From: Treponema sp.
GTDB lineage: Bacteria > Spirochaetota > Spirochaetia > Treponematales > Treponemataceae
Direction: 5' to 3'
Length of the DNA stretch: 64,000 bases
Assembly: GCA_022510865.1 (NCBI GenBank)
Contig: JAFLSQ010000007.1
Span: 1-64,000, forward strand
Position numbers and translations under genes: made by a program. Shown in pieces: positions 30,170-48,846 of this stretch; position 1 is the stretch's first letter, and each line of letters begins with the position of its first letter. Below the pieces are notes generated by a model, which saw nothing but the letters and a program-made list of their open reading frames with translations, made no database searches and had not been told where the DNA came from.

Positions 30170-30284
30170 CGCGGCGGACGGGGAGGGCGCGGATTTCCCC
30201 GCCATTTTTCTGGCATCCGGGCATGGAAACGCCGCCAGACAGTCATTTTTTTATAAAAATTCTAAAAAATCTCAAAAAAAGTAC

Positions 30285-30314
30285 TTGACAAAGTTGATGG
30301 GGGGGGGGTATACT
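30285..30314 (+). promoter_or_regulatory. promoter with G10 tract in the spacer, probably phase-variable
   Basis: TTGACA (30285-30290) and TATACT (30309-30314) are 18 bp apart, and the last ten spacer bases (30299-30308) are all G. Gain or loss of one or two G would move the spacer through 16-20 bp, and so through the optimum of 17. Confidence 0.85.
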
Positions 30315-30346
30315 CTGTTCCCATAATACTTTTTAAAGGAGATATT

Positions 30347-30850
30347 ATGAGAAAATCTGCAAAGGGTTTGATTGCTGCATTGGTTCTGCTTTTTGCGGCT
30401 CCGCTGTCTGCGGGCGATTTTGATTGGTCTCAGTTCTGGTGCAACTACGGTGGCGGAATTGAGAAGGGTGATTTGATTGTCAACATCGATACCGGATTGG
30501 GATTCGGTGGAGGTTTCGGCTGGAATCCTATCATGGTTGACGTGGCTATTGCACTGCCTATCTGGAAGCTGCCGTTCACTTTTGGTGGATATGCTACAAT
30601 TAACCCGTTCGGAGGCTTTGGACTGACTGTCGGAGGAGAGGCTGCCTATCACGTAATGCTTCCGCCGGAGCATCTTGATGTGTATGCTATATTCAGAATT
30701 GGAGCGTTGCTTTGGTTCGGCGATCCGTTTTGGGGCAGACCTGACTGGGGTACGGCACTTGGCGCAACATGGTACTTCACAGACCTCATTGGTGTGAACC
30801 TTGAGATTGGTTATCCAGCGTTGAAAGCCGGACTTTCTTTGAAGTTCTAA
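30347..30850 (+). CDS. small predicted outer-membrane beta-barrel protein
   Basis: 167 residues. The signal peptide ends near PLSAG (22-23). The mature part is rich in Gly and aromatic residues in alternating-strand patterns (FGGGFGWNP, FTFGGYATINPFGGFG) and ends in LSLKF. A terminal Phe after alternating hydrophobic residues is the outer-membrane beta-signal. AAAGGAG lies seven bases before the ATG. The gene is alone between the poly-G promoter and a strong terminator. I do not recognise the family. Confidence 0.82.
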   Translation: MRKSAKGLIAALVLLFAAPLSAGDFDWSQFWCNYGGGIEKGDLIVNIDTGLGFGGGFGWNPIMVDVAIALPIWKLPFTFGGYATINPFGGFGLTVGGEAAYHVMLPPEHLDVYAIFRIGALLWFGDPFWGRPDWGTALGATWYFTDLIGVNLEIGYPALKAGLSLKF

Positions 30851-30884
30851 ACAAAAAGTATTCTGAAACCTAATAAAAACCTTG

Positions 30885-30917
30885 CAGGGGAAAACGTTGT
30901 TTTCCCCTGTTTGTTTT
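30885..30917 (+). terminator. terminator of the poly-G-controlled gene
   Basis: CAGGGGAAAAC-GTT-GTTTTCCCCTG followed by TTTGTTTT. Confidence 0.9.
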
Positions 30918-46656: not shown

Positions 46657-48846
46657 ATGGTAAAAATAGAATATTCGGGCGGATTGCCCGCCTGCAATGT
46701 GCCGGAAGAGCTTTTGAGCGGCAAGCGTCATCTCACTTTCAATGAAATTCAGATTCTGGAGAAAAATCTTAATCATAACGCGGACTCAACTTGGAGCAAT
46801 TTTTATGTGGATGAGGGCGGCTTTGATCCGTCTGTGATTCATCTTTCTTTTTTCTCGGGGTTCATTGTCCTTGGCAAAATGGAGAACTGCTCGCTGCATT
46901 ATAATGATTTGCTGCTTGAGTGCGGAATCAGAAGCTCGCGGCTGAGCAACGTTGTCACCGGCGACCACTGCGCAATCCGCAATGTGCGTTATCTTGACAA
47001 TTACCGGCTTGGAAATCGCGTGATTCTTTTTAATGTTCAGGAGATGTGCTGCACGAACCACTCGAAGTTCGGGGTGGGCGTGCTAAAGGACGGCGAGCCT
47101 GAGTCAAACCGGGTTTGGATTGGCGTTGCGAACGAGAATGACGGCCGGCGCGTGCTTCCTTTTGAGTCGATGATTCCGGCGGACGCGTACATCTGGTCTC
47201 ATTACCGCGATGACCCGGCTCTTCTTGAAAGGTTCGTCGCGCTCACGGAGCACGGCATTTCCAAGGAGCTGAACACTTTTGGTTTTGTGGATGACGACAC
47301 GGTAATCAAGAATTCACACATAATCAAAGATACAAAGGTCGGGAAATCCGCGTACATAAAAGGCGTTTTCAAGCTCAAAAACGTGACCGTCCTCTCATCC
47401 GAGGCGGAGCCTAGTCAGATTGGCGAGGGCGTTGAGATGGTCAACGGAATTCTTGGCTATGCCAGCCATGTTTTTTATCAGGCGATTGCCGTGCGTTTTG
47501 TAATCGGGCGGAACTGCCAGGTGAAGTACGGCGCGAGGCTTTTGAATTCGGTGCTGGGCGATAATTCCACGGTCTCCTGCTGCGAGATTCTGAACAATCT
47601 GATTTATCCGTTTCATGAGCAGCATCACAACTCTTCATTTCTGATTGCGACCACCGTGATGGGGCAGAGCAATATTGCCGCGGGCGCGAACATCGGCAGC
47701 AATCACAACAGCCGCAGCCCGGACGGCGAGATTTTTGCAAAGCGCGGTTTTTGGCCGGGGCTTTGCAGCGACTTCAAGCACAACTCGCGGTTCGCGTCAT
47801 TTGTCCTTGTGACAAAAGGAAGCTATCAGCACGAGCTGGATATTCCTTATCCGTTTGCGCTGGTCTCGCCGGGGCAGAACGGAAATCAGTCTGTGGGGAT
47901 TTTTCCCGCTTGGCTTTTCCTTTATGATATGTTCGCCGTCACCCGGAACAAGGCAAAGTTCGCGAAGCGCGACAAGCGCGTGATAAAAGTGCAGCACATC
48001 GAGACCGATCCGCTTGCGCCGGACACAATGGAAGAGGTCATGGCCGCCATGGACAGGCTGATTTCTCTGACAGCCGATTACCTTACTTCTGTTAATAGCG
48101 ATTATATGGCCGATGCCGGCACTCCGGAAAAGAGAATGCAGGCCGCGAAAGATTTTCTTCATCAGAATCCGGAGGCGGATTTTACGCTGATGGACTCGCG
48201 CTGCCAGAAAAAATACGGCGCGACAATCTTCAAGCCTGTGCAGGCTTACAGGATGTACCGCAAAATCGTGAAATATTACGCCACAAAAACTCTGATGGAT
48301 TTCTGCACCGCGCTTGATGTCCAGACGCTCACCAAAGACCTGATTGATAGAATCCGGGAACTTCCGCTTTACGAGAACTGGGAGAATGCGGGCGGTCAGT
48401 TAATCCCGTCGCAGAAAATTCAGGAGCTTTTTGCCGCGATTAAGGACAATGGGATTTCAGACTGGGAGGGAGTCCATCGGTTTTATGACAGCTGCCAGTT
48501 CTCGTATGAGCAGTACAAAGTGCGTCACGCGCTTTATCTTCTGGAGCAGTTGTATTCGCGCCCGGTTGAGGAATTCTCCAACGAATTGTACCGCGACATA
48601 ATCGATGATGTGTCAATCGTTGCCTATGATATTTACAACGCCTCTTTTCAGTCCAGGGAAAAAGATTACACGGATTATTACCGCGCGATGACCTACCGTT
48701 CCAAAGAGGAGATGGACGCGGTGATTGGCCCGCTTGTTCAGAATGAATTCCTGCGCCAGCTGCGCACAGACACCGAGGCGTTCATTTCTGACCTGAAAAT
48801 GATTTTTAACGGACTTGTGCGGGGGGGGGTAATATTGTATAGTTAA
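46657..48846 (+). CDS. DUF4954-like left-handed beta-helix protein
   Basis: 729 residues, no signal peptide. The region of about 60-420 shows hexapeptide-type turns (NCSLHYNDLLLECGIRSSRL, VKYGARLLNSVLGDNSTVSC, GQSNIAAGANIGSNHNSR), as in left-handed beta-helix transferases. A helical C-terminal part follows. It matches what I recall of DUF4954 proteins of Bacteroidetes and treponemes, which are annotated as nucleotide-sugar transferase-like. ATG at 46657 is set by the promoter; no ribosome-binding site. The last codons contain a G9 run (48821-48829). Confidence 0.82.
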   Translation: MVKIEYSGGLPACNVPEELLSGKRHLTFNEIQILEKNLNHNADSTWSNFYVDEGGFDPSVIHLSFFSGFIVLGKMENCSLHYNDLLLECGIRSSRLSNVVTGDHCAIRNVRYLDNYRLGNRVILFNVQEMCCTNHSKFGVGVLKDGEPESNRVWIGVANENDGRRVLPFESMIPADAYIWSHYRDDPALLERFVALTEHGISKELNTFGFVDDDTVIKNSHIIKDTKVGKSAYIKGVFKLKNVTVLSSEAEPSQIGEGVEMVNGILGYASHVFYQAIAVRFVIGRNCQVKYGARLLNSVLGDNSTVSCCEILNNLIYPFHEQHHNSSFLIATTVMGQSNIAAGANIGSNHNSRSPDGEIFAKRGFWPGLCSDFKHNSRFASFVLVTKGSYQHELDIPYPFALVSPGQNGNQSVGIFPAWLFLYDMFAVTRNKAKFAKRDKRVIKVQHIETDPLAPDTMEEVMAAMDRLISLTADYLTSVNSDYMADAGTPEKRMQAAKDFLHQNPEADFTLMDSRCQKKYGATIFKPVQAYRMYRKIVKYYATKTLMDFCTALDVQTLTKDLIDRIRELPLYENWENAGGQLIPSQKIQELFAAIKDNGISDWEGVHRFYDSCQFSYEQYKVRHALYLLEQLYSRPVEEFSNELYRDIIDDVSIVAYDIYNASFQSREKDYTDYYRAMTYRSKEEMDAVIGPLVQNEFLRQLRTDTEAFISDLKMIFNGLVRGGVILYS
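48815..48843 (+). promoter_or_regulatory. candidate antisense promoter with G9 spacer
   Basis: TTGTGC (48815-48820), 17-bp spacer made of G9 plus eight bases, TATAGT (48838-48843). It lies in the 3' end of the beta-helix gene and would transcribe antisense to the DTW gene. Confidence 0.5.

Follow-up and report, generated by a model that had tools for sequence, protein, structure and literature searches.

We analyzed a 64,000-nucleotide stretch of a Treponema sp. contig (the window) and read its positions 30285-30850 directly; their layout matches the earlier description exactly. A gene for a small predicted outer-membrane protein stands there behind a promoter whose spacer ends in ten G residues. 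The features of the locus, each with the evidence for it, are as follows.

30179-30201, + strand: terminator-like hairpin of the upstream MBL-fold gene, 8-pair stem followed by a T run (scan)
30285-30290, + strand: -35 element TTGACA (sequence; promoter scan)
30291-30308, + strand: 18-bp spacer, AAGTTGAT followed by G10 (sequence; promoter scan)
30299-30308, + strand: G10 tract adjoining the -10 element, the presumed slip tract (sequence; class evidence)
30309-30314, + strand: -10 element TATACT (sequence; promoter scan)
30335-30341, + strand: ribosome-binding site AAAGGAG (sequence)
30347-30850, + strand: gene for a 167-aa predicted 8-stranded outer-membrane beta-barrel with signal peptide and C-terminal aromatic beta-signal (ORF; AlphaFold; fold matches; PF13505 in relatives)
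30884-30910, + strand: terminator-like hairpin closing the unit, 12-pair stem and T run (scan)

The earlier note had placed TTGACA and TATACT 18 bp apart, with G as the last ten bases of the spacer and the tract exactly between the two elements. Direct reading and the promoter scan, which gave 11 of 12 consensus matches and an 18-bp spacer, confirm both points: G10 lies directly before TATACT. Runs of eight or more G are themselves over-represented in the window (seven overlapping matches from three tracts, 0.66 expected), and none of 100 shuffles reached seven. With a hairpin on either side, the barrel gene forms a single-gene unit; its neighbours, named from reading their proteins, are presumably an MBL-fold gene and a pyruvate formate-lyase-like gene.

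The barrel gene starts with the ATG at 30347, and its stop codon ends at 30850. The signal peptide and the C-terminal aromatic beta-signal described earlier are present, the protein ending in ...AGLSLKF. An AlphaFold model built from 23 relatives has eight strands with a mean pLDDT of 89.8, and its best natural folds, by fold comparison and Foldseek, are OmpA, OprF, NspA, and OmpW, with Z about 15. OmpW (2f1t, Z 14.8) is tied with the other three, the fold being common to many families. Pfam gave only a weak match to the protein itself (PF13505, E 0.045), and nine of the 23 family members match this barrel model. Neither the protein nor its 22 relatives matched the curated OmpW or DUF2715 Pfam models, and for the protein there was no NCBIfam match and no sequence match among solved structures. 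Because its best folds are these eight-stranded barrels, the product is confidently predicted to be a small outer-membrane barrel.

The homopolymer thus lies wholly between the hexamers (30285-30314), which is the arrangement of spacer-length contingency promoters of the porA or TP0126 type, and the gene behind it encodes a surface protein of the kind they control, as far as the model predicts. The tpr-type arrangement, with the tract in the -10/transcription-start region and the -35/-10 spacing unchanged, is not seen at this promoter. Alternatively, the coding frame would extend N-terminally to include the tract, and slippage would shift the frame. The frame is indeed open upstream through the tract, and an ATG overlaps the start of the tract. 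At G10, however, that ATG is out of frame with the gene, and it lacks a ribosome-binding site; the ATG at 30347, by contrast, follows AAAGGAG and begins the signal peptide. Class-wide, moreover, the tract lies between the TTGACA and TANNNT elements, and the median distance from the -10 element to the start codon is 34 nt. We therefore rejected a translational switch at this locus as very unlikely.

Recurrence of the promoter design and the genes behind it

Similar promoters were searched for with the pattern TTGACA-N2..16-G7-TANNNT, the reversed pattern and a poly-C version serving as controls. This genome contains 11 such sites against none for the reversed pattern, so the placement of the target tract is not due to chance. 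Ordinary TTGACA-N15..19-TANNNT sites number 171 in the same genome, versus 51 for their control. In the genus, where the genomes compared are mostly metagenome assemblies and related ones are not independent, 62 of 146 genomes carry sites of this class, 175 in total (summed by hand) versus one for the reversed pattern. Across the phylum they occur in 47 of 296 genomes, most of which are in the same family, while some belong to the class's other families and few to other classes.

It could be argued that the tract is a product of chance or of assembly, since the genome assembly consists of 145 contigs and homopolymer lengths are prone to error. The number of sites relative to the reversed control and the fixed class of genes behind them speak against this, as does their presence in single-contig genomes (L074, L075, G066). 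At the class level such an explanation is already contradicted, and for the target it is hardly credible.

The design was also found in Clostridia, Bacilli, Saccharibacteria, and others. Thirty genomes of other groups, each picked for having at least one site, hold 146 poly-G sites (summed by hand); the set outside the genus was thus selected for having a site, and the GTDB contig matches listed give no rates. One uncultured Bacilli genome (G451, a 1.7-Mb assembly) contains 32 poly-G promoters, and the ten that were read (L413-L422) precede paralogous secreted proteins.

Secreted proteins and lipoproteins were called with a simple heuristic devised in-house, which looks for signal peptides and lipoboxes. 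By this rule, a gene with a signal peptide or lipobox lies behind 121 of 134 sites in the genus (about 90%) compared with 14 of 58 neighbours (24%; p = 1e-19). Outside the genus, among the matches listed, which include some Treponema loci, the corresponding figures are 72 of 110 and 75 of 451 (p = 7e-23). Ten of the 11 products in this genome look secreted, one of them judged by eye because its start was masked. The one clear exception in the genome is L052 (G000:C67:13336-13366), where the protein behind the poly-G promoter is flavin reductase-like and has no signal peptide. Separately, in a relative (G005), apparent lipoprotein genes at three loci (L381, L385, and L392) carry a G9-10 tract within the start of their coding sequence; in L385 it is in frame. 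This suggests, from the sequence, a translational version of the switch in that relative.

Tract and spacer lengths

Tract lengths differ in several orthologous sets. L227 and L309 have G10 and G7 between identical flanks of 60 bp upstream and 45 bp downstream; L074 and L075 have G13 and G9, and their relative L397 has G15. Further sets are L281/L402/L288 (G10, G9, and G8), L395/L396 (G12 and G9), and L295/L296 (G10 and G11). Four orthologous sets are equal in length (L276/L289, L279/L285, L284/L293, and L286/L408). All of these comparisons are between species, in assemblies, and concern sibling promoters rather than the target tract. In G168, the barrel gene behind the L279/L285 poly-G promoters has an orthologue (L361) whose tract is cut to GGGG and whose -35 element is TTGGCA; here the switch has perhaps been lost.

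The family of the target protein was found in 34 of 146 genus genomes. Among the upstream regions read, the tract occurs only in the window, G021, and G107, the latter two holding a more distant homologue. No tract was found upstream of the syntenic orthologues, around which the neighbourhood of MBL-fold, outer-membrane protein, and pfl genes recurs. Because the tract is absent from relatives that share this neighbourhood, the target tract is, judging from these upstream regions, lineage-specific; in the family, such a tract has apparently arisen, or been kept, more than once.

The earlier note had proposed that a one-base change would restore or destroy the 17-bp optimum. Restoration by one base is plausible at the target, but the spacers of the class are mostly 18-19 or 15-16 bp. 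Over 210 unique sites from the genus and phylum scans, spacer length peaks at 16 and at 18-19, with 20 sites at 17. Within the 15-19 range, 12% of poly-G spacers measure 17 bp versus 41% of ordinary promoters in this genome (37/91), and a second genome set agrees (11/92 at 17), although the dip was noticed post hoc. Either the loci mostly lie away from the optimum, or a G run moves the optimum itself. Total spacer length is less variable than when tract lengths are reshuffled (p about 0.001), an effect absent in the core subset. Over 311 sites the left part of the spacer is negatively correlated with tract length, a relation made in part by the limits of the scan; with these respected, r = -0.27 (p about 0.001), again with no effect in the core subset.

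Strand polarity of the tract

The poly-C version of the pattern yielded two sites in the 146 genus genomes versus 175 for poly-G, and none versus 146 in the 30 selected genomes of other groups. A poly-C tract is present in the promoter of neisserial opc (PMC7864442), so C tracts are usable elsewhere. Because poly-C would alter spacing equally well, spacing alone does not explain the G-only design.

This near-absolute polarity is what would be expected if the G run were mainly a fixed structural or sigma-contacting element, with non-template G beside the -10 element and length changes incidental. The tract also always ends at the -10 element, though the pattern used imposes this, spacers peak at 18-19, and some orthologous pairs keep one length. 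On the other hand, tract length ranges from G7 to G10 and from G9 to G15 among orthologues, runs of this kind are known to slip (PMC10013896), and the restriction of the design to surface genes is better explained by a switch than by a general element. We regard a mainly fixed element as improbable; a fixed role and a switch may both hold. Tentatively, and with less than even confidence, strand-polar poly-G spacers, with G and hardly ever C on the non-template strand directly before the -10 element, might constitute a distinct and widespread promoter design of host-associated bacteria in several phyla, in which the G run serves as both slip tract and working promoter element, lies off the 17-bp optimum, and is a principal means of varying the surface (one Bacilli genome has 32 sites). 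L403 and L287, which are identical over 500 bp downstream, have CCC-G9 and CCCC-G8, respectively; the spacers are equal in length, and the boundary differs by a substitution.

Known switches and the proposed mechanism

In T. pallidum, tp0126 has poly-G between its -35 and -10 elements and is transcribed best at a spacing of 17 nt, according to PMC7864442, where Giacani et al. 2015 is described; meningococcal porA works in the same way, with poly-G in the -35/-10 spacer (PMC7864442). The spacer-slippage mechanism is therefore already known. TP0126 has been modelled as an OmpW-like 8-stranded barrel (PMC8407342), so the earlier idea that the target represents a different kind of gene for poly-G promoter control fails. 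The target resembles tp0126, for which the spacing effect has been demonstrated, in tract position, in its small outer-membrane barrel gene, and in belonging to the same order of spirochaetes. It differs in being one of about 11 such promoters in a gut-type treponeme genome and in its spacer of 18 with G10, and Pfam gives no evidence for homology of the two proteins. With porA of Neisseria meningitidis it shares poly-G in the spacer of an outer-membrane protein gene, yet organism and protein are unrelated and the treponeme has many loci per genome. Poly-G also lies upstream of the treponeme outer-membrane protein genes tprE/G/J and tprL; the tprL tract, however, overlaps the -10 region with spacing unchanged (PMC7864442), unlike that of the target. 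In another gut commensal, Bifidobacterium breve, G-tract slippage switches a surface structure, the pilus, but there the tract is located between two ORFs of one pilin gene rather than in a promoter spacer, and switching is by reading frame (PMC9187656). In T. pallidum clones, 24 of the 46 G/C tracts with at least 8 residues showed length variants (PMC10013896).

We consider it very probable that the target is a phase-variable promoter of the porA/TP0126 type. The exact anatomy, its recurrence across the genus, and the secreted gene class support this, as do tracts that differ between close relatives in unchanged flanks, spacer variance below the reshuffled expectation, a barrel product with terminators on both sides, and the experimental precedents of tp0126 and porA. 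The earlier claim of a slip-prone spacer before a surface barrel gene is thus upheld at the level of the family, where the architecture recurs at many surface-protein genes and orthologous tract lengths differ. Weighing against phase variation are the four orthologous sets of equal length, the near-absence of poly-C, the avoidance of 17 bp, which is the expected optimum, and the lack of compensation between left part and tract in the core subset.

Under phase variation, slipped-strand mispairing during replication would reversibly lengthen or shorten G10 within a population, and the changed -35/-10 distance would alter the fit of the sigma70-type RNA polymerase. Cells would then switch the monocistronic barrel gene, whose product would be surface-exposed, between high and low transcription. 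Genus-wide, the promoter set would toggle mostly surface lipoproteins and outer-membrane proteins independently, giving mixed, and possibly beneficial, surface phenotypes in one population.

The locus alone would be a further switch of the TP0126 type. Of greater importance is the wider set, which suggests that in the gut both uncultured treponemes and bacteria of other phyla use one readable, strand-polar DNA signature to vary many surface lipoproteins and outer-membrane proteins. Phase state would become scorable from microbiome sequencing reads, and spirochaetes that are harmless commensals could be used to model a mechanism that is otherwise examined in T. pallidum. The class also raises the questions of why the tract is G rather than C and why the spacers avoid 17 bp. 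The literature searched, chiefly open-access, contained no report of a poly-G spacer promoter class in commensal treponemes or Clostridia, and its breadth and G polarity seem new as far as that literature tells.

G9-11 tracts that lack TTGACA form a second class; they lie at a constant 6-7 nt from ACTATAC, which precedes the tract, or GTATAGT, which follows it. Examples lie at 2619-2640 and 48821-48843 of the window and at L010, L011, L059, L063, L064, L065, and L067. The pattern ACTATAC-N4..8-G7, whose reversed control gave none, had matches in seven of 39 genomes.
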